Positions 5,818 through 21,805 of a stretch of DNA of 57,860 nt are shown here, one piece after another. The notes under the pieces were generated by a model. That model was not told where the DNA came from, searched no databases, and saw only the letters and a list, made by a program, of their open reading frames with translations. The position numbers and the translations under genes were made by a program. The number at the start of each line of letters is the position of its first letter. Positions within the stretch are counted from its first letter, which is position 1. The stretch comes from an uncultured Bacteroidales bacterium (GTDB taxonomy: Bacteria; Bacteroidota; Bacteroidia; Bacteroidales; P3), in the NCBI GenBank assembly GCA_900317285.1, contig ONGA01000013.1, forward strand, positions 1-57,860. Reading direction: 5' to 3'.

Positions 5818-7281
5818 ATGAAAAAGCAAGACGTTTTAAAAGGACTCAAACCAGAGCGCGTGTGGCACTGGTTCGGTGAAATCATGCAGATTCCGCGCCC
5901 CTCGAAGCACGAAGAGCGCATCTCGGCCTACCTCGTGAACTGGGGCAAGGAGCACGGTCTCGAGACCAAGAGCGACAAGCTGGGCAATGTGCTCATCCGC
6001 AAGCCCGCCAGCAAGGGCTACGAGAAGAGCGCCGGCGTGTGCCTGCAGGCTCACATGGACATGGTCTGCGAGAAGAACAGCAGCAAGAAGTTCGACTTCA
6101 TGAAAGACCCCATCCAGCCCGTGCTGGACGGTGAGTGGCTCACGGCCGACGGCACCACCCTCGGCGCCGACGACGGTATCGGCGTGGCCGCCATCCTCGC
6201 CATCCTCGAGGACAAGAAGATTGCCCATCCCGCACTCGAAGCCCTCATCACCGTGGACGAGGAGACGGGTCTCACTGGCGCCAACGGCCTCAGCAAGAGC
6301 TGGCTCAAGAGCGACATTCTCCTCAACTTCGACGACGAGGACGAGGGCGAGTACTGCATCGGCTGCGCCGGCGGCATCGACACCACCGCCGAGATGGACT
6401 ACAAGCTGGTGCCTGCCGTGAAGGGTCACAAGGCTTTCAAGGTGAAGGTGAGCGGCCTGGTGGGCGGCCACAGCGGCGACGACATCAACCGCGGCCGCGC
6501 CTGCGCCAACAAGCTGCTGAACCGCATCCTCTGGGAGGGTACCTATAAATACGGCATGCGCCTCGCCACCATCGACGGAGGCAACCTGCGCAACGCCATC
6601 GCCCGCGAGGCCGAGGCCCTCGTCACCGTGCCCGACGACAAGGTGCGCGCCTTCAAGACCATGGTCACCAAGATGGGCAAAGCCATGGTGTTTGAGTTCC
6701 GCAGCACGGAGCCCGAGATGGAGTTCGAGATTCGCGACGTCAAGGAGATGCCGAAGAAACTCATCGACAAGGACACTCAGGAGCGCTTGGTGAACCTCCT
6801 CTACGCCTGCGCCCACGGCGTGCTGGCGATGAGCCGCGAGATTGAGAACTTCGTGGAGACCTCCACCAACCTCGCCTCCATCAAGATGCGCGACGGCATC
6901 ATCCACATCGCCACCTCGCAGCGCAGCTCCGTGGAGAGCGCCAAGATGGCCGCCGCCGCCAAGATGGAAAGCACCTTCCGCCTGGCGGGCTGCCGCGTGA
7001 AGCACAGCGACGGCTACCCCGGCTGGACGCCCAACCCCGACAGCCGCGTGCTGAAGGTGGGCGTCGAGGTCTACAAGAAGATGTACGGCAAGGAGCCCGT
7101 GGTCCGCGCCATCCATGCCGGCCTCGAATGCGGCCTCATCGGCGAGAAATATCCCAACATGGACATGATCAGCTACGGTCCCACACTGCGCGGCGTCCAT
7201 AGCCCCGACGAGCGCATCGAAATCAAGACCGTCGAGATGTTCTGGAACCAGACGCTGGAAATCCTCAAGAAGTTGAAATAA
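5818..7281 (+). CDS. pepD: Cytosol non-specific (aminoacyl-histidine) dipeptidase
   Basis: This 487-residue protein is an M20C metallopeptidase that cleaves Xaa-His and many other dipeptides in the cytosol. Metal-binding signatures are present in order: AHMDMVCEK, GADDGIGVAA, DEETGLTGANG and the SGLVGGHSGDDI dimerisation-domain motif, with length as usual for PepD. No signal peptide is visible. It is preceded by about 175 bases without a gene that hold part of a REP element and an A-rich leader, and is closed by a good terminator at 7302-7340, so it is probably monocistronic. Confidence 0.95.
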   Translation: MKKQDVLKGLKPERVWHWFGEIMQIPRPSKHEERISAYLVNWGKEHGLETKSDKLGNVLIRKPASKGYEKSAGVCLQAHMDMVCEKNSSKKFDFMKDPIQPVLDGEWLTADGTTLGADDGIGVAAILAILEDKKIAHPALEALITVDEETGLTGANGLSKSWLKSDILLNFDDEDEGEYCIGCAGGIDTTAEMDYKLVPAVKGHKAFKVKVSGLVGGHSGDDINRGRACANKLLNRILWEGTYKYGMRLATIDGGNLRNAIAREAEALVTVPDDKVRAFKTMVTKMGKAMVFEFRSTEPEMEFEIRDVKEMPKKLIDKDTQERLVNLLYACAHGVLAMSREIENFVETSTNLASIKMRDGIIHIATSQRSSVESAKMAAAAKMESTFRLAGCRVKHSDGYPGWTPNPDSRVLKVGVEVYKKMYGKEPVVRAIHAGLECGLIGEKYPNMDMISYGPTLRGVHSPDERIEIKTVEMFWNQTLEILKKLK

Positions 7282-7671: not shown

Positions 7672-8349
7672 CTAAAACGCGGAATGCACGGCACGCACGG
7701 ATTGGCCTTCAAGACGGTGTGCATCCTCCATGCCCTGAGCGTATTCGTCAAATTCGAAGTCCCACGCCTGGAACGGTCGGTCCGTATTGAGCGAGGCGGA
7801 CCAGTAGAGGCCGTCTCTGCCTGCGTACCAGAGTTTGGAGCCTTCGCGAAAGCCAGCAGCGGGCAGGAAAAGGCTGTTGCCGTTAACGGCGGTGCAGAGG
7901 CAGCCGTTTACGCCGTCAACAGACGTCCATTCCACGGTGGTATTGTCGAGGAGTTCCTGCCACTCTTCCTTGGTGGGGATGCGTGCACCGTTGCCCAACC
8001 AGATGGCCGCGACATCGTCGTTGGGAGACAAGGTGGTCAGGTTGTCGGTGAAGCCGTTGAGACCATACTCCGGTTTGTTGCAGTACTTGGACAATTTGTC
8101 CCCGGCGTCGCCATAAGCATAGGTGCTCCATTCGTACACGTTCTTCGTACCGATCTCCCCCCAGGCAAAGTAGTCGCCATATTCCACTGGGGCGCTGGCG
8201 CCCACGTTGCATGAAGCCCACAACAAGCCACTCGGCAAGCCGAGGTCAACCCACTCGACCGTTGCATTGCTGCTGTTGTTTTCTTCCTTGCCGCAGCCCA
8301 CATAGGTCACAGTCATCATGACCACAACAGCCGCAAGCATTGTTTTCAT
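7672..8349 (-). CDS. FISUMP-type (Fib_succ_major) lipoprotein
   Basis: The ATG at 8349 gives a 225-residue lipoprotein with a hydrophobic signal and lipobox TYVGC; a GTG four codons upstream is an alternative. The body carries hallmarks of the Fibrobacter succinogenes major paralogous domain: WVDLGLPSGLLWASCNVGA near the mature N-terminus, GDYFAWGE, a RIPTKEEWQELL helix and LFLPAAGFR and GLYWSAS near the end. These C-type-lectin-like domains are abundant in Bacteroidota surface proteins; the ligand is unknown. A promoter faces it at 8430-8437, giving a leader of about 75 bases. It stands alone, between the degenerate repeat and the AT-rich cassette. Confidence 0.85.
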   Translation of the reverse strand: MKTMLAAVVVMMTVTYVGCGKEENNSSNATVEWVDLGLPSGLLWASCNVGASAPVEYGDYFAWGEIGTKNVYEWSTYAYGDAGDKLSKYCNKPEYGLNGFTDNLTTLSPNDDVAAIWLGNGARIPTKEEWQELLDNTTVEWTSVDGVNGCLCTAVNGNSLFLPAAGFREGSKLWYAGRDGLYWSASLNTDRPFQAWDFEFDEYAQGMEDAHRLEGQSVRAVHSAF

Positions 8350-8429
8350 AGTTTGTTTCACGGTATTGAAATTTATTGAACGTTTGATTTATTGCGATTT
8401 ACAAGCCCAGAGCCCCTCATAACACCATG

Positions 8430-8437
8430 CAAATATA
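8430..8437 (-). promoter_or_regulatory. Promoter of the FISUMP lipoprotein gene
   Basis: TATATTTG on the minus strand followed by CA matches the -7 consensus. No convincing TTG at -33 is visible. Confidence 0.6.
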
Positions 8438-8457
8438 CGAAAAAGGAAATACACTGA

Positions 8458-9372
8458 CTACTCCTCCTTTGCATACATTTCGCACATTTGGGATATTTTT
8501 TCCTTTACGGTATCTCTTAAACCAACCGGAGATAATACCTCGACTGAATCGCCATAAGACAGTATTTCTTGAATAAAATCAGAGGTGGGTCGAATGGACA
8601 AACAAAACAAGCTATATTCATCGGTTCTCTTTACTTCTTTTTGAGAAATGTGTAACGGCAGCGAGCGCAAGTAATTAGCTCTTGAAGGAGTCGCTTTAAG
8701 TTTGACTATTTCTACTGGAATGGATTTATCGACATACACACCATAAGCGCCAGAAAAGAAATCCCCTGCGTCATAGTCATGGGGTAAAACAAAAGATTCC
8801 TCCTCTAACTCTACGTTTGTCATTCGGTCGATGGAATATATCCTTTCTTTCTTGTTTCCACAATAGCCAACAACATACCACCGACGCTTGAAAAGTTTTA
8901 TACAAAGAGGGATGAAAGCCGCATAATGAATTACGTCGTTAGTCCAGAATGGCGAGTAATCAAACCGGGCCTTCCTATTTTCATGAATGGCAGTTAGCCA
9001 TGTGGGGAGTGATTGTTCTGCTGATGGAATTTCTTCAAGTAAAATCCGTTCACATATCTTCTTGTTTTGTACTAAGACGTTGTTTACAGACACCGACGAT
9101 AAAAGCCATTGACGGAATCGCGACATACCCTTTATTTCGTCCTCATCCGCTATGTAATAACGATAGCCATCAGTATCGCAACAGATTTCAATGCCGAAGA
9201 TTTCTTCAATATCCTTTCTGTGATTGTGAAAAGTTCTGATATTGTACGAAGAACCGCCTGATATTGCATCTGCATATTGGTACTTTCGACAAATCTCTTC
9301 AAATGTTATTCCTTCGCTTCCAGCACGACTAACCGTGTCTATCAACCATACGTATTTGTTTAGGATGCTCAT
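8458..9372 (-). CDS. WYL-domain transcriptional regulator
   Basis: The ATG at 9372 lies just downstream of a clear promoter and yields 304 residues; the longer reading to 9534 crosses that promoter. The N-terminal 70 residues look like a winged helix (LIDTVSRAGSEGITFEEICRKY). The middle carries a WYL-like core (ARFDYSPFW, then PLCIKLFKRRWYVVGYC and RIYSIDRM near residues 165-215). A C-terminal extension follows, as in PafC/BrxR-type regulators. WYL regulators often repress defence operons and respond to nucleic acid or nucleotide ligands. It diverges from the 9466-11432 operon, with both promoters inside a 93-base gap, which suggests it controls that operon. It is AT-rich compared with the flanks. 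Confidence 0.82.
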   Translation of the reverse strand: MSILNKYVWLIDTVSRAGSEGITFEEICRKYQYADAISGGSSYNIRTFHNHRKDIEEIFGIEICCDTDGYRYYIADEDEIKGMSRFRQWLLSSVSVNNVLVQNKKICERILLEEIPSAEQSLPTWLTAIHENRKARFDYSPFWTNDVIHYAAFIPLCIKLFKRRWYVVGYCGNKKERIYSIDRMTNVELEEESFVLPHDYDAGDFFSGAYGVYVDKSIPVEIVKLKATPSRANYLRSLPLHISQKEVKRTDEYSLFCLSIRPTSDFIQEILSYGDSVEVLSPVGLRDTVKEKISQMCEMYAKEE

Positions 9373-9387
9373 GCAAAATATTTTTTG

Positions 9388-9395
9388 CAAAGATA
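9388..9395 (-). promoter_or_regulatory. Promoter of the WYL regulator
   Basis: TATCTTTG followed by CA on the minus strand, 15 bases before the ATG. It lies back to back with the plus-strand promoter at 9439-9446. Confidence 0.75.
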
Positions 9396-9438
9396 CGAAA
9401 AAAAATACCCTATGAATCATTTTTTCACACCTCTTTAG

Positions 9439-9446
9439 TATATTTG
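9439..9446 (+). promoter_or_regulatory. Promoter of the cassette operon
   Basis: TATATTTG followed by CA, 19 bases before the ATG at 9466. The 43 bases between the two divergent -7 elements would hold any shared operator; I see no obvious long palindrome there. Confidence 0.75.
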
Positions 9447-9465
9447 CATTAAATAAAAACAAGAC

Positions 9466-9771
9466 ATGGAAAAGAAAAACATCAAACAAAGTACTGACAC
9501 AGAGCACATAAGCGAGTTTGTCAGAAAAATCCAAAACGGGGAAATACCATTCGTTGTGTCAAAGACACCTGCAAGAAACAAGTATCATAAGTATGGTTCG
9601 CTTAAAACACTGGACAAATTGGTTGACTCCCCAGACCTTGAGGACAGAATTAAGGCTGCGAAGATGGGATATGGACTTGAGAAATTGATGGACGACAATG
9701 ATGATCGTGTGTTGAATGCTGTCTGGGAATATACTAAACCTCAGGATGAAGAATCTGAGAGTGAGCAGTAA
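9466..9771 (+). CDS. Small acidic protein with a HEAT-like C-terminal helix pair
   Basis: This 101-residue protein is not recognised as a whole. It has no signal peptide or membrane segment. Residues about 45-85 (SPDLEDRIKAAKMGYGLEKL then DDNDDRVLNAVWEY) fit the pattern of one variant HEAT/leucine-rich repeat unit, which usually mediates protein contacts. The last ten residues are strongly acidic (DEESESEQ). It is the first gene downstream of the promoter divergent to the WYL regulator and precedes the nuclease-like gene by 42 bases that contain a second promoter. A regulatory or antitoxin-like role for the nuclease is possible but unsupported. Confidence 0.6.
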   Translation: MEKKNIKQSTDTEHISEFVRKIQNGEIPFVVSKTPARNKYHKYGSLKTLDKLVDSPDLEDRIKAAKMGYGLEKLMDDNDDRVLNAVWEYTKPQDEESESEQ

Positions 9772-9803
9772 CGGAAAACAAGAACTGATTATTAAAAAAA
9801 ATG

Positions 9804-9811
9804 TATCTTTG
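9804..9811 (+). promoter_or_regulatory. Internal promoter just upstream of the nuclease-like gene
   Basis: TATCTTTG followed by CA lies only two bases before the ATG at 9814. If used, transcription would begin at or next to the start codon, giving a leaderless message. No good TTG at -33. Confidence 0.5.
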
Positions 9812-9813
9812 CA

Positions 9814-10815
9814 ATGGGAAAAGACAATAATAAATATAGTGAAATAGACGCTGAAGTCAAACCATTATTAAATAATAGTATGGATATAATTAAAGAAAAG
9901 CAACGGGTTTGGGCCATACGCAACGGGAAAAAGTTGCGAAATGACTATGATTTATACATAACCAATGTTGAAGATAATATTTTCAATGGTCTATCCCAAA
10001 AAACAAGAAAAGAATTCGATGATGCAAGGGGTGGTGAACTTAAAGATATTGAAAAGCATCCCGCAAAAATGTCTGCCCTACTCTCTTCATCGGCGTTGTG
10101 TGTAAATATTTTCCAATATTTTCAAGACAAATCGAAAGAATTGAAGTTGCTTTTGTTAAGAGAATGCAAACTGGTACGTAATGACTACAATTGTGACGAT
10201 GTTATCATCAAGTTTGAATGCACAGATTATCCAATTTGCTCTGGTAAAGAAATAATTGCCACGCCTAACATTGATATAGTTATTATAACTATCAAAAACA
10301 ATGAAGAGGATAAGATATTCGCCATTGAAAGCAAGTTCACTGAACCTTATAAAAAGTCTCATCATTATTTCCTGAACGAGAAATACTATAAAGATGGACA
10401 AAACGCGCCATATTGGAAATCGATGGGAGACCTGTACGAGAAACTTGGAATTGAATATGCAGAAAAAAAGGAATACAAGAACAAAAATGATATTCTGCAT
10501 GGAAAAGAAATAGATGAACTCAAAAGATATAAATATCTTAACGCATTACAACTGATAAAACACCTTATGGGTGTCCGGTGTAAATGGAGAAACAAAAGCC
10601 AAATCAAGTTGGTTTATTTTTTCTATGATTCTTTGGGACAAGAAGGAAATATCCATCGCACCGAAATATCGAAATTCAATACCTTTATTGAAAAAGCAAC
10701 TGGTGTTGGCTTCAATTATATTTCTTACCAAGAACTCATTTGTAATCTAACGAAAGCCTTACCTTATAACGAGCATAAAGAATATATAGATTATATTACG
10801 GAAAGGTATTTATAA
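9814..10815 (+). CDS. PD-(D/E)XK nuclease-like protein, putative restriction endonuclease
   Basis: This 333-residue soluble protein has a candidate PD-(D/E)XK active site: D154 in PNIDIVI, then E172 and K174 in FAIESKF, on two predicted strands. The rest (ALQLIKHLMGVR near residues 245-257, LVYFFYDS, EISKFNTFIEKA and YQELI) resembles, from memory, proteins labelled PGN_0703-type putative restriction endonucleases. No methyltransferase or specificity gene is next to it, so if it is a restriction enzyme it acts without a linked modification gene, or it is the effector of a different defence mechanism. Codon use is AT-rich. It is followed after five bases by the phosphoesterase gene. Confidence 0.65.
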   Translation: MGKDNNKYSEIDAEVKPLLNNSMDIIKEKQRVWAIRNGKKLRNDYDLYITNVEDNIFNGLSQKTRKEFDDARGGELKDIEKHPAKMSALLSSSALCVNIFQYFQDKSKELKLLLLRECKLVRNDYNCDDVIIKFECTDYPICSGKEIIATPNIDIVIITIKNNEEDKIFAIESKFTEPYKKSHHYFLNEKYYKDGQNAPYWKSMGDLYEKLGIEYAEKKEYKNKNDILHGKEIDELKRYKYLNALQLIKHLMGVRCKWRNKSQIKLVYFFYDSLGQEGNIHRTEISKFNTFIEKATGVGFNYISYQELICNLTKALPYNEHKEYIDYITERYL

Positions 10816-10820
10816 TAAGC

Positions 10821-11432
10821 GTGGAAGTTTGCACATTGAAGATATTGCACATTTCGGACACTCATGGTAAGCACCGTGAACTAAATACATTGCCAACAGC
10901 AGACGTACTTGTTCATAGTGGGGACTTTACGATGGGTGGCAGCGATAGTGAGGCTTTGGACTTCCTGGAATGGTTGTGCATCCTTCCATATAATCACAAG
11001 ATATTCATTGCCGGAAACCACGACGACTGCATGATGGACGCGACACTAGAGGGCTTGCCAGATGGGGTTCATTATCTTGCTGACAGTGGGGTATGTATTG
11101 ACGGCGTATATTTCTACGGCATGCCTATGTTTTGTGGCGTTGCAAATGGTAAAATGCAAGAAATAGAACGATGTGGAGATATTCCGAATAAGGTGGATGT
11201 TCTGATAACCCACCGCCCTCCATTTGGCATTTTGGATGGTGACGAAAACAAACACTTCGGAAGTGCCTCTTTACTTCATAAAATCATTGACATTCAACCT
11301 CACGTACATCTATTTGGGCATGCTCACAAAGGATACGGAATGAAGGAATGGAAAAAAATTATTTTCAGTAATGCCAGTGTGGTTGATGAAAATTATAACA
11401 TCACAAATGCGGCGAAGTTGATAAGTTACTGA
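10821..11432 (+). CDS. Calcineurin-like metallophosphoesterase
   Basis: This roughly 200-residue protein has all metallophosphoesterase motifs in order: DTHGKH (from residue 13), GDF, GNHDD, THRPPFG and GHAHKGYG. Such enzymes hydrolyse phosphodiesters in nucleotides or nucleic acids using two metals; small single-domain members of this type are often called YfcE/UPF0046-like. The start is uncertain: GTG at 10821 (used here) or TTG at 10836, with no ATG before the first motif. It sits five bases after the nuclease-like gene, so the two are very likely coupled. Inside a putative defence cassette it might trim nucleic acids or degrade a signal nucleotide, which is inference only. Confidence 0.85.
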   Translation: MEVCTLKILHISDTHGKHRELNTLPTADVLVHSGDFTMGGSDSEALDFLEWLCILPYNHKIFIAGNHDDCMMDATLEGLPDGVHYLADSGVCIDGVYFYGMPMFCGVANGKMQEIERCGDIPNKVDVLITHRPPFGILDGDENKHFGSASLLHKIIDIQPHVHLFGHAHKGYGMKEWKKIIFSNASVVDENYNITNAAKLISY

Positions 11433-11517: not shown

Positions 11518-11649
11518 TACCAAAATCAAAAGTGAGCACCGCTTTGCGGTTCTTATTTTTTTATACACATACCACAGCCTGAAAGCGAGCTTTCGCCGTG
11601 GTATGTGTATAAAAAAAAGCAGGACTGGCGTCCTGCTCACTTTTGATTT

Positions 11650-11654
<5 letters not shown>
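11518..11654. repeat. Nested inverted-repeat structure abutting tRNA-fMet
   Basis: Two pairs of perfect 20-bp arms are nested: outer arms 11518-11537 and 11635-11654, inner arms 11556-11575 and 11598-11617. Small private hairpins sit between the arms: ACCGC/GCGGT on the left, GAAAGC/GCTTTC at the centre and AGCAGGAC/GTCCTGCT on the right. The right outer arm runs into the 3' end of tRNA-fMet (TGGTA). Runs of seven T follow the left small hairpin on the plus strand and the right one on the minus strand, so it can end transcription from both sides. Confidence 0.9.
11611..11637 (-). terminator. Terminator of tRNA-fMet
   Basis: On the minus strand AGCAGGAC-loop-GTCCTGCT is followed by TTTTTTT. 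It begins 12 bases after the tRNA CCA end and is part of the larger inverted repeat. Confidence 0.75.
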
Positions 11655-11724
<70 letters not shown>

Positions 11725-11844: not shown

Positions 11845-13668
11845 CTATTGTTTGATTATATGCTTGTTAAATACACCCACATCGGTCTTCACACGGAGGG
11901 TGTAGGTACCTGCAGGGAGCCCTTCGAGCGAGATTTTGAGGTCGCCGGAGAGGGTCGTCTTGGGGTTGTCGTCGCGAAGGACGGTACGACCCAACGCATC
12001 GACGAGCAGGAGCTGCGTGGCAGAGAGGCCGGAGAGGGAGAGCTGCACGTCGCCAACGGTGGGGTTGGGACTGAGGGTGACGGGGTCGGCGGCATCGTCG
12101 AGGTCGCGGATGCCGGCAAGGTTGCTGGCGGTGGTGTCCTGCCAGATGGCGAAGAAGGTCCAGTTGCGGTCGACATAGGCAATGGAGCCGGGCTGATAGA
12201 TGGTGTCGAGACCCTCGCTGTTACGGCACCAGCCAAGGAAGATGCAGTTTTTCTTGGTGAAGGTGCACTGGGGCATTTCAACGCCGTCGCGCGAACAGTA
12301 GGTCTTGGTGTACATGAGTCCGCTGCCGCTGTTGGGGTTGAGGTAGATATAGTTGTTGGAGATGGTCTTGAGATGGAGGCGGCAGACGGTGTCGAGGTGC
12401 TGGAGGAGGGTGTCGTAGGTGCCGCCGGGGAGGGTGTAGTCGAAGAAGGTATACTCGGTGTTGAGGCGGCAGATGGTGTCGTAGTAGTCGACGGTGTCGA
12501 ATGTTTCGGGGATGGGTTTAATGTTGAAGAGGGCGCCCTGGTTGTAGTTGAAGGTGTAGGTGGCATTGCCGCCCGCGCCACCGGAACCCGGGGCGAGGTT
12601 GTTGACGGTGTAGTAGCCGTCGCCGCTGCCGCTCCAACCCCAGTTGAAGTGGTAGTAGCCGGTGCCGGAGGCGCCGTCGAGGACGAAGGCGTGGCCGCCC
12701 TCACGGTCGTAGCCGTAGTAGAGGATGGGGCGACGTGCCGCCATCTCGGTGTCGATGTAGGCAGTCCACTCGGCTTCGGAGGAGAGGTTGTCGCGGGTGA
12801 CGGAGAAGATGGAGGTGTCGTATTTGAAGTACTGGACGAAAGCGTTCTCGGCGCAGGGGGACTCGGGACCGTACCAGGCGGCTGTGAAAGCGCCGCTGGA
12901 GGCGCCATAGTCCATGTCCACGGCGACGCCGCAATGGTAGGAGATGGTGGCGAGGGCGGCAGTCTGTTCGGAGGTGGCGGCCATGCGGACACGGTTGGGC
13001 ATGCGCGACCAGTGGTAGGTGGTGTTGGCGAAGTCGGCGGAGAGGGTGCCGTAGTTTTCGTGGGTATAGGAGTGGGAGCCGGTGCCGCAGGAGGGGTGAC
13101 CCCAGAATTTCATGATTTGCGCCATTGCAGTGGCGACGCATCCCACGACGGTGCGGAAGCGACCTTCCTGGTCGTAGGGGCAGAGGTTGTTGTAGGGAGA
13201 GCCCTGGTCCCAGGTGGTGGAGAGAAGCGGGCCGATGGTGTCGCTTGAGGTGGAGAAGAGCGGAGTACCGGGGGTGGCGAGGGCCTGCCAGGCGCTGGCG
13301 ACGGCGGGAGAGGTCTCCCCCACCTCGGCGGCTGCGGCGACCTGCGCATCATAGCCACGGAGCCAATAGCGGAGCTCGCTGTTGAGCTGCTTGGACAGGG
13401 GGGCGTCGAAGGCGTAGCCGAGGATGGGCTGGACACAGTCGTCGGCGGGGAGGATAACGAAGCCGGCCTCGCCGTTGACGAAGAGGTAGAGATGCTGCAG
13501 CTCGTCGACCATCAACTCGTCGAGCCATTCGACAGGCTTGACGTTGCTCGGGCGATGGCTGTTCCAGAAATGGATGGCGGCATTGCGGGCGGTGTTGACG
13601 CCGACGGGTGCCGCGAAAGCGGAGGAGAGGAACAATATTGCCGAAAGGATGGCGATTGATTTTTTCAT
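11845..13668 (-). CDS. Secreted C10-family cysteine peptidase with T9SS-type C-terminal domain
   Basis: This 607-residue protein is a streptopain/interpain-like peptidase. It starts with a signal peptide (ending near AFAAP), then a propeptide of about 130 residues with the Spi-like FVILPADD segment. The catalytic domain carries C177 (GCVATAMAQIMKFW) and H326 (GGHAFVLDGA), followed by HFNWGWSGSGDGYY. After it come an InlB/Listeria-Bacteroides-type repeat (CIFLGWCRNSEG to WTFFAIW) and a C-terminal sorting domain with SPNPTVGDVQL, LVDALGRTV and LPAGTYTLRV, as expected for type IX secretion. It probably degrades proteins outside the cell. It is the last gene of a minus-strand run with dsbD, 20 bases away. 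Confidence 0.92.
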   Translation of the reverse strand: MKKSIAILSAILFLSSAFAAPVGVNTARNAAIHFWNSHRPSNVKPVEWLDELMVDELQHLYLFVNGEAGFVILPADDCVQPILGYAFDAPLSKQLNSELRYWLRGYDAQVAAAAEVGETSPAVASAWQALATPGTPLFSTSSDTIGPLLSTTWDQGSPYNNLCPYDQEGRFRTVVGCVATAMAQIMKFWGHPSCGTGSHSYTHENYGTLSADFANTTYHWSRMPNRVRMAATSEQTAALATISYHCGVAVDMDYGASSGAFTAAWYGPESPCAENAFVQYFKYDTSIFSVTRDNLSSEAEWTAYIDTEMAARRPILYYGYDREGGHAFVLDGASGTGYYHFNWGWSGSGDGYYTVNNLAPGSGGAGGNATYTFNYNQGALFNIKPIPETFDTVDYYDTICRLNTEYTFFDYTLPGGTYDTLLQHLDTVCRLHLKTISNNYIYLNPNSGSGLMYTKTYCSRDGVEMPQCTFTKKNCIFLGWCRNSEGLDTIYQPGSIAYVDRNWTFFAIWQDTTASNLAGIRDLDDAADPVTLSPNPTVGDVQLSLSGLSATQLLLVDALGRTVLRDDNPKTTLSGDLKISLEGLPAGTYTLRVKTDVGVFNKHIIKQ

Positions 13669-19666: not shown

Positions 19667-20371
19667 TTATTGTTGTTGGTTCATGATTTCTTTGATTTTG
19701 ATATCTAATTCTTCCATGACATTTTCATATTCCCTTTTAATCCGATAATATTGTTTGTGTTCTTTGATTTGTTCATCATTTTCTTCTATGTTTTTTCTAA
19801 ACTCCTTGATTGCATGTTCAACAGACCTGCCATTGTATGGAGAGCGTTTATCATGTATTATCCTTTTACCATTAGCATTCTCTACAATCATATTTGCTCC
19901 AGTTAGGGACATTTCAGATAACTCGCTAATAAAAATGCTTAAATAACCGAAAATATTCGTAAAATCATCTCTTTCGGAATTAAGCGCAGATAAGATTGCA
20001 TGGTGCATAAATATTACAGCATCCGCATCGTGCATCAGTCCCAGCTGATTCTGGTATGATATGAGCGAATGCATAATGTCGATATTCTCTTGCGACCGCT
20101 TTTCGTACATATCCACTTGATTTTGCAGTTGTTCAAATTCCTCTGCAATCTTCTCGTTACGTCTGATGGATTCTTTCACATCAATGGTATTCCAAATCTG
20201 ATAACCAACCATAAGCGTAGCACAAATGGCAATTAGTCCTACTGCAACGCCAATATAGTTGATTTCGCAGCCGCAAATGGTTACTCCATAGGTCAAAGAT
20301 ATAACTAAAGCCACCACGGAGAGTACCGTTGCCAAAATACTGAAAAACTTTGCTGAATCTTTATGTTTCAT
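19667..20371 (-). CDS. Unknown two-pass membrane protein with coiled-coil domain
   Basis: This 234-residue protein is not recognised. It has two hydrophobic segments (residues about 9-29 and 38-60), then a long charged, mostly helical region with coiled-coil character (EKIAEEFEQLQNQVDMYEKR and later ENDEQIKEHKQYYRIKREYE). The topology suggests a membrane-anchored cytosolic helical domain. It is 12 bases downstream of the secreted unknown at 20384, so they form an operon. Composition is AT-rich compared with msrA and zupT, suggesting transfer. A phage-defence or surface function would be a guess. Confidence 0.6.
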   Translation of the reverse strand: MKHKDSAKFFSILATVLSVVALVISLTYGVTICGCEINYIGVAVGLIAICATLMVGYQIWNTIDVKESIRRNEKIAEEFEQLQNQVDMYEKRSQENIDIMHSLISYQNQLGLMHDADAVIFMHHAILSALNSERDDFTNIFGYLSIFISELSEMSLTGANMIVENANGKRIIHDKRSPYNGRSVEHAIKEFRKNIEENDEQIKEHKQYYRIKREYENVMEELDIKIKEIMNQQQ

Positions 20372-20383
20372 TTTGATATATTA

Positions 20384-21805
20384 TTATTCTCTTAATTCTG
20401 GATATTTCCATTCCCATTTTAATGTAAACGTGAAAATGTAGGTGTACGTTGTTGAGCCTACCTGCACTGGCAGCATCAATCTCATTTCTTTTCCATCATT
20501 CACTCCACCATTATTATAACCTCCGTAACCGCCCATCAACCGCTTACCTCCATAGTATTTCTCAGAACAAAAAAAGTCTGATAGCTGTGCAAGCGCTGGT
20601 ATTATGGCCGGTTGTTGGCTTTTTTGGAGCGCTTCAATATCAGCCCCTTTGTGTAGTATCCTTTCCGTAAACCCATCGAAGTTCACGATTATAGCTTCAT
20701 CCCATAGCAACTTCATCGTACTGTTCGTCATGTTTTTTAACATAAAGTCGAATCTCATGTCATACTCAAGAGCATTCCACTTGATTGATATTATATTATC
20801 TTCATAAATTGAACTATTTGTAATCTTACCCTTTCTTACATTTTGGTTTTTGGGCTTTTCAACTTTTGTAAGCTCAAAATGATAATCACCTGCATTTTTT
20901 TTCCCTTGCAGAATAACGGTATTGATTGAGTCTATTTTACTCTTCTCATGCAGTTCTTTTGATGCAAGGTCATTGCCCGTATACACGTAGATTCCACTAC
21001 TCAAGTTCGAGTTGACCCACCAATGATCATACCGTTTATCATATGAAACTGCTTTGATACAAACCGAATCATCGCTTCTAGTGTAGGATAGTGTTATATG
21101 GGGATTTGAAGAGAACCTGTACTTATATGAGACAGCAACATCCATAATGGTAATTTTCTTGAAGTAGACATATTCCGTCCAATTGTCATATATTCTTCTA
21201 TTTTCCGCGCGATGATTATTTATGGTCAAGATTCTATAATCATAATTTAATGTGTCCCTACCATGTACACGTACATAGAGATTAGGTTTAATAATTTCAG
21301 AAGAAAGAGAGCCGATATTGCACAAGTTGATATAGTCATACAGATTTTTTGTTTTCTTTAGGACATAATCGCTTTCGAAAAATCTAATTGTATCTCTATC
21401 ATACGTGTTTAATAGGAATATTATTTTGTATCTAACATGAATTCCACCGGTAATTTTATATTGTATTTGACCATCTGAAATTGATAGTACAACCATTTTT
21501 TTGTTAGCTATAGTGGATGATGGGGTATACTCATTTTCTGACGTTCCACCATACACAAGTATTGGATGTTTTTTCCGTTTATCCTTTATATCATATCTAT
21601 TATTGGTATAAAAAAAACCATCACAATAGTAGCCATCGCATACCGTTGGCTCAATGTTCCTACTTTTGTCGTAGCAAAAAATTATTGTATCACCTACATG
21701 TATTCCCCTATCGAAATACTCTTTCTTCAAAAGATTTTGCTGTGCAAATGCTGTGCTTACCATTGCAATAAATGCGATTGAGAGAATAGCTGTTTTTTTA
21801 TTCAT
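20384..21805 (-). CDS. Unknown secreted protein, AT-rich
   Basis: This 473-residue protein has a clear signal peptide (cut near AFAQQ). The mature part is rich in beta-type sequence with many Tyr, Asn and Ile residues and no motif I can name. Near its end is a Gly/Tyr-rich loop (GGKRLMGGYGGYNNGGVND). No lipobox or sorting domain is visible. It is the first gene of a two-gene minus-strand operon, and no clear -7 element is visible upstream. The AT-rich codon use contrasts strongly with the flanking genes. Confidence 0.6.
   Translation of the reverse strand: MNKKTAILSIAFIAMVSTAFAQQNLLKKEYFDRGIHVGDTIIFCYDKSRNIEPTVCDGYYCDGFFYTNNRYDIKDKRKKHPILVYGGTSENEYTPSSTIANKKMVVLSISDGQIQYKITGGIHVRYKIIFLLNTYDRDTIRFFESDYVLKKTKNLYDYINLCNIGSLSSEIIKPNLYVRVHGRDTLNYDYRILTINNHRAENRRIYDNWTEYVYFKKITIMDVAVSYKYRFSSNPHITLSYTRSDDSVCIKAVSYDKRYDHWWVNSNLSSGIYVYTGNDLASKELHEKSKIDSINTVILQGKKNAGDYHFELTKVEKPKNQNVRKGKITNSSIYEDNIISIKWNALEYDMRFDFMLKNMTNSTMKLLWDEAIIVNFDGFTERILHKGADIEALQKSQQPAIIPALAQLSDFFCSEKYYGGKRLMGGYGGYNNGGVNDGKEMRLMLPVQVGSTTYTYIFTFTLKWEWKYPELRE

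Follow-up and report, generated by a model that had tools for sequence, protein, structure and literature searches.

Four AT-rich genes on a contig of an uncultured Bacteroidales bacterium (ONGA01000013.1, assembly GCA_900317285.1; 57,860 bases, hereafter the window) raise the question of whether they form a functional unit and whether such a unit is directed against phages. The block, at positions 8458-11432, has a GC content of 0.374 (against 0.574 in the left flank and 0.597 in the right) and encodes a WYL regulator facing a protein of 101 amino acids (aa), a nuclease, and a metallophosphoesterase (Table 1). An initial annotation had proposed a compact defence unit in which the nuclease and the phosphoesterase cooperate; re-measurement of the coordinates, the strands, the 93-bp divergent gap, and the 5-bp gap between the nuclease and phosphoesterase genes reproduced the layout that it described. 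Our comparisons make it probable, with considerable room for doubt, that the block is a small nuclease cassette under WYL control that is exchanged horizontally and belongs to the phage-defence type. Judged from sequence comparisons, its nuclease slot is exchangeable, being held by REase-ARP, PDDEXK_4, GmrSD, or RNase J-like metallo-β-lactamase (MBL) proteins.

Recurrence of the cassette and partners of the phosphoesterase

A search of 198 genomes with the phosphoesterase (E at most 1e-15) detected it in 25, including the window's own genome. In a congener (G049, locus L118), homologues of all four window genes lie in one cassette, in the order WYL (minus strand), 98-aa homologue of the 101-aa protein, short open reading frame (ORF), 301-aa protein, REase-ARP nuclease (2.6e-41), 397-aa protein, and phosphoesterase. 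Genomes G014 and G040 carry the WYL, REase-ARP, 397-aa, and phosphoesterase genes together, and a WYL gene, a distantly related nuclease gene, and a phosphoesterase gene occur together in G036 (L065/L150), G034 (L113/L157), and L222. The initial annotation had named, as the case that would defeat its proposal, that homologues of these genes are never neighbours elsewhere; this is contradicted by G049 for all four genes and by the latter three cases for the WYL, nuclease, and phosphoesterase genes, which recur as a unit. The G036 nuclease matched the window nuclease at 5e-8, that of G034 was linked through G036, and the nucleases of G036, G034, and L222 gave no REase-ARP match in Pfam, those of G036 and G034 matching no Pfam family at all. 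A protein of 239 aa (G036) or 182 aa (G034) lies between WYL and nuclease, and the nuclease-phosphoesterase gaps are 1 and 5 bp, respectively; the G034 cassette has an extra 540-aa DnaE-like protein.

In 14 of 26 near-relative loci, one of which is truncated at a contig end, the nuclease is replaced by an RNase J-like MBL protein (PDB 6k6s, 3.8e-11) whose gene shares 4 bp with the start of the phosphoesterase gene. At L104 and L110, the nuclease slot holds proteins of 313 and 358 aa, respectively, that had no Pfam match. DnaE-like proteins of 476 to 545 aa were seen in sister cassettes L104, L106, L107, L109, L113, and L114, the Pfam matches of the L104 protein being confined to the Pol III alpha NTPase and finger domains.

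Beyond the genus, a contig scan returned at least 426 phosphoesterase relatives, of which the best 80 loci (L150-L229) were kept; 13 of these (L150-L162) are genus loci already counted among the near relatives. All 80 carried titles of Bacteroidota groups except L229 (Mollicutes, 3.9-kb contig). An upstream ORF of at least 100 aa was present in 78 loci, and in 43 of these 78 a same-strand gene lay no more than 60 bp upstream of the phosphoesterase. These partners comprised MBL proteins (19), REase-ARP-type nucleases (6), DUF6946 (4), PDDEXK_4 (2), GmrSD (2), the 397-aa protein (2), WYL (1), and seven unclassified proteins, the last including L193, L202, and L213, which were not scanned. The REase-ARP type was assigned by similarity to window-type nucleases in L150, L157, and L222 and by profile in L195, L203, and L190; the PDDEXK_4 partner in L174 is itself a PADLOC candidate, PDC-S26. 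In a wider neighbourhood, the phosphoesterase was found more often near RNase J-like MBL genes or, within approximately 6 kb, RtcB-family genes (21 of 80 loci each; the latter comprising 15 close RtcB, five with distant relatives only, and one fragment) than within the same distance of REase-ARP (11 of 80, among which L195 and L203 have identical phosphoesterases), and these counts give no support to the proposed cooperation of nuclease and phosphoesterase. One of the 80 loci had a T4 Rnl2-type RNA ligase nearby.

WYL homologues were found near the phosphoesterase in 45 of 78 loci (by our own WYL profile rather than Pfam's, which makes comparison with the expected density approximate). In 61 genomes, 12 of 15 phosphoesterase genes (hand-counted from coordinates) had a WYL gene within 8 kb, against 0.0066 expected per gene from 70 matches in the approximately 170 Mb of these genomes, with 8 kb taken on either side.

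Mapped onto a tree built from 91 phosphoesterases, the labels of the partners required 32 changes, against a shuffled mean of 50.2, which indicates that partners swap repeatedly, yet not at random. This count leaves out 14 duplicate loci and L127, and the labels are coarse, with loci L167, L188, and L184, labelled "other", having a Pfam nuclease. The window phosphoesterase belongs to a supported clade of 19 (98/87) made up of 13 MBL and six nuclease-only cassettes. Phosphoesterase distances correlated with WYL distances (r 0.60, 48 loci, 0/2000 permutations) and with MBL distances (0.70, 25 loci), shared genome descent being included in both values. From the side of the nuclease, REase-ARP was present in 59 of 393 order genomes, and the 30 order-level places inspected had WYL at three and MBL at one.

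Properties of the four proteins and the divergent gap

The phosphoesterase matched the PADLOC phage-defence candidate PDC-S10 over nearly the full model length (2.5e-71), Pfam Metallophos (1.1e-11), and MPPED2 structures (PDB 3rl4, 1.3e-24). Metallophosphoesterases carry the motifs DxH, GD, GNHD, H, and GHxH; the corresponding metal-site residues D13, H15, D35, N66, H131, H167, and H169 were invariant in 18 of 18 aligned sequences, in agreement with the complete motif set noted in the initial annotation. Alignment of the family suggests that translation may start at TTG 10836, where its other members start. The label PDC-S we take to denote a single-gene candidate. PDC-S10 is listed alone, whereas the window protein belongs to a unit that also has a WYL gene and a nuclease slot with interchangeable occupants, which gives this lone candidate a genetic context; its source is a preprint (Payne et al., bioRxiv 2024) that appears as a reference entry in PMC13356809. 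Relatives of the phosphoesterase are common in viral contigs; among the 38 viral-contig loci of 80 returned, none had WYL, MBL, or RtcB and one had REase-ARP. The window protein falls in the same sequence family as the class III phosphodiesterases MPPED1 and MPPED2, from which it differs in being bacterial and operonic. The fly enzyme dMpped of this class hydrolyses cAMP and cGMP (PMC10547211), the metagenomic metallophosphodiesterase PdeM shows no cAMP hydrolysis (PMC4320098), and a metallophosphoesterase-like phage protein damages host DNA (PMC12287305); because these three act differently, the substrate of the window enzyme cannot be read from its sequence.

The nuclease matched Pfam REase-ARP (PF22558) over residues 34-333 (2.5e-22; 80.2 bits, cut-off 27) and secondarily PDDEXK_13 (PF20796, 3.2e-7). 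When it was aligned with 11 relatives at 16-56% identity (most at 16-23%), D154, E172, K174, and E177 were invariant in all 12 sequences. The nuclease-like pattern D154...E172-x-K174 recognised earlier is thus retained, and the catalytic residues, whose absence from the matched fold was the other case that would have counted against the proposal, are present. Translation probably starts at M23 (9880, 311 aa) rather than at 9814, because this is where a homologue in L220 with 56% identity begins and because a TAnnTTTG promoter-like motif lies at 9804-9811, directly ahead of the first ATG. The PD-(D/E)XK fold is a prediction from sequence, as the AlphaFold2 model had a predicted local distance difference test (pLDDT) score of 39.6, too low for use, and no PDB match was obtained by sequence. 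REase-ARP proteins are restriction-type nucleases that elsewhere mostly lack a neighbouring phosphoesterase or WYL gene, whereas the window nuclease stands beside both; a cognate methyltransferase was absent from the four cassette genes and from the flanking ORFs at 7672-8361 and 11845-13668, other neighbours being unscanned. The nuclease matched one unannotated human-feces record with the label "Bacteriophage sp.", no plasmid record, and, in a scan reaching close relatives only, no viral contig. These results, with those for the phosphoesterase and the 101-aa protein in viral contigs, led to the rejection of a phage origin.

The regulator matched Pfam WYL (7.8e-10; 39.0 bits, cut-off 21.8), WCX (4.3e-11; 43.4 bits, cut-off 23.9), and the PADLOC WYL model (4.1e-29). 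Its nearest relatives are the WYL proteins of cassettes L118-L120 (1e-103 to 1e-107), followed by a group at approximately 1e-60 that includes the WYL proteins of RtcB loci. TAnnTTTG is a Bacteroidota promoter element; it occurs in the divergent gap at 9388-9395 (minus strand) and 9439-9446 (plus strand), out of 28 occurrences in the window with both strands counted. The gap also contains a CACACC half-site common to the L118-L120 gaps. As a separate observation, a palindrome GGTRTG-N11-CRCACC lies between WYL and the operon in L118-L120 and is a candidate operator there.

The 101-aa protein shared 49% identity over 75 aa with the 98-aa protein at the same place in L118, and its gene was found in only two of the 198 genomes, G049 and that of the window itself, lying inside the cassette in each; with so few occurrences, its proposed role as adaptor or inhibitor is conjectural. 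No Pfam family exceeded the cut-off, and the close-relative scan of viral contigs gave no match. The earlier description of the protein as HEAT-like is unproven, there being no HEAT match among Pfam matches at E up to 1. It showed 33% identity over 57 aa to the 397-aa protein (E 1e-4), whose own HEAT match falls below cut-off, and its structure model was helical with low confidence (66.8).

Possible mechanism and rival explanations

Under the reading of the locus as a regulated defence cassette, the WYL protein would bind the divergent gap and keep transcripts low until released by a nucleotide or nucleic-acid ligand arising in phage infection or nucleic-acid damage. The nuclease would then be the effector, cutting nucleic acid, and the phosphoesterase would hydrolyse a phosphodiester, possibly cyclic, either in the WYL ligand or at damaged RNA ends; hydrolysis of the ligand would switch the response off. 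Cuts made by PD-(D/E)XK and RNase J-type enzymes normally have 5'-phosphate and 3'-hydroxyl ends, which need no phosphoesterase. Because of this, and because the family is found near RtcB, signal erasure or the processing of 2',3'-cyclic ends is slightly favoured over trimming of the nuclease's own cuts, and a role as signal eraser appears as likely as one in end trimming. If the phosphoesterase does erase the WYL ligand, the substrate of one protein would be the ligand of the other, so that WYL sensing becomes testable.

Parallels for parts of this arrangement exist. WYL domains are predicted to be ligand-binding defence regulators that sense nucleotide derivatives (PMC4012209), and the WYL regulator BrxR controls a BREX defence operon (PMC9122589), placing a WYL gene beside a defence-type operon as in the window; however, BREX genes were not recognised in the window cassette, which has two enzymes only. 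The Salmonella RtcR-RtcBA operon is controlled by tRNA fragments that carry a terminal 2',3'-cyclic phosphate (PMC7790460) and likewise sets a ligand-sensing regulator next to RNA-end enzymes, a likeness that extends to the RtcB-family neighbours of the phosphoesterase family; its regulator is of the CARF/sigma-54 type, whereas that of the window is a WYL protein, and the window cassette has a nuclease in a genome with no RtcB match. The parts of the cassette thus belong to known families. In the literature searched, which excluded bioRxiv and most subscription papers, we found no paper on REase-ARP or PDC-S10 and no useful precedent for the MBL/phosphoesterase pairing, and in titles and abstract openings no unit of this kind appeared to be described.

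Recurrence, the intact nuclease residues, and the PDC-S10 candidate status support the initial proposal of a defence unit in part, the cooperation of its two enzymes being conjectural. Several observations weigh against the defence reading itself. The WYL protein differs among cassette types, its constancy being limited to the domain; no WYL was seen at 33 of the 78 phosphoesterase loci, some of which are truncated at contig ends; and the window gap keeps the right half of the L118-L120 palindrome without the left. The phosphoesterase stood beside none of the 30 order-level REase-ARP places (30 high-scoring of 63) and none of 32 distinct phylum-level places (of 36, from 50 stretches), many of these stretches reaching only 1.5 kb outward. 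Furthermore, the RtcB-family genes near the phosphoesterase fit RNA repair or stress equally well.

This last point, together with the Rnl2-type ligase, the RNase J-like MBL partners, the resemblance of the window regulator to WYL proteins of RtcB loci, and the sensing of tRNA fragments by RtcR (PMC7790460), would suit an RNA damage-response cassette in which WYL is the sensor of damaged RNA or tRNA, the phosphoesterase repairs 2',3'-cyclic ends, and the nuclease serves RNA turnover. We regard this explanation as unlikely for the window, given that its genome has no RtcB match and its phosphoesterase partner is a restriction-type nuclease, that 13 of the 15 close RtcB genes are on the strand opposite the phosphoesterase and so not in one operon with it, and that the phosphoesterase and one partner are PADLOC candidates. 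The small gene directly before the nuclease, and a nucleotidyltransferase/HEPN pair at the same spot in a relative, could instead point to a self-maintained addiction or toxin-antitoxin-like island whose nuclease toxin is restrained by the 101-aa protein or the phosphoesterase; the rarity of the 101-aa gene relative to the phosphoesterase (two against 25 of the 198 genomes) leaves this quite improbable. Unrelated cargo brought together by chance in an insertion hotspot would agree with the variability of the spot and with REase-ARP genes that mostly lack the phosphoesterase elsewhere. Such chance is very improbable, because neighbours of these kinds are found together again elsewhere in other genomes and WYL genes lie near the phosphoesterase far more often than their density predicts; it was disfavoured since the layout recurs.

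In several loci (L191, L193, L204, L216, L228, and others), the phosphoesterase gene and an RtcB-WYL pair point away from each other. This recurrent layout suggests that Bacteroidales have an RNA repair cluster linked to WYL, and RtcB-family RNA ligases stand beside the same phosphoesterase in other Bacteroidales. A broader and tentative idea, which we hold to be rather unlikely, is that WYL and the MPPED2-like phosphoesterase form a general sensor/eraser pair, in which a phosphodiester signal, for example RNA with a 2',3'-cyclic phosphate end, would switch WYL and be destroyed by the phosphoesterase. The effector would then be swappable: one lineage would use the RNA ligase RtcB in repair, others would use restriction-type or RNase J-like nucleases in defence, and the window would hold a minimal four-gene version.

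Genomic setting and coordinates

Table 1. Positions of the cassette features in the window.
Feature	Position	Strand	Basis or remark
WYL-WCX transcription regulator, 304 aa from ATG 9372	8458..9372	-	Pfam, PADLOC
Divergent gap, 93 bp, putative promoters	9373..9465		TAnnTTTG motifs facing both ways
101-aa helical protein (predicted)	9466..9771	+	Homologue at same place in L118
TAnnTTTG promoter-like motif directly before first ATG of the nuclease ORF	9804..9811	+	Consensus match
REase-ARP family PD-(D/E)XK nuclease, 333-aa ORF	9814..10815	+	Pfam; likely true start 9880
MPPED2-like metallophosphoesterase, PADLOC candidate PDC-S10	10821..11432	+	Start GTG 10821 or TTG 10836

The cassette sits at a variable spot between a gene that we take to encode a dipeptidase (5818-7281) and tRNA-Met (11650-11724). 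This spot was compared in six relatives, two of which were uninformative. Genomes G009, G093, and G086 had no insert, with approximately 680, 580, and 190 bp, respectively, between the flanking matches. In G002 (dipeptidase identity 99%), approximately 4.8 kb of other cargo occupied the spot, including the nucleotidyltransferase/HEPN pair (L340 12895-13625; Pfam 1.6e-11 and 1.3e-14). Nested inverted repeats with 21- and 23-nt arms lie beside tRNA-Met at 11518-11654. They were considered as a mobile-element end and rejected, as no second place was found in the genome; G002 and G086 conserve the stretch next to tRNA-Met, and it therefore belongs to the flank. A second AT-rich islet was observed near tRNA-Leu at 19667-21805 of the window, with ORFs of 234 and 473 aa that had no Pfam match.

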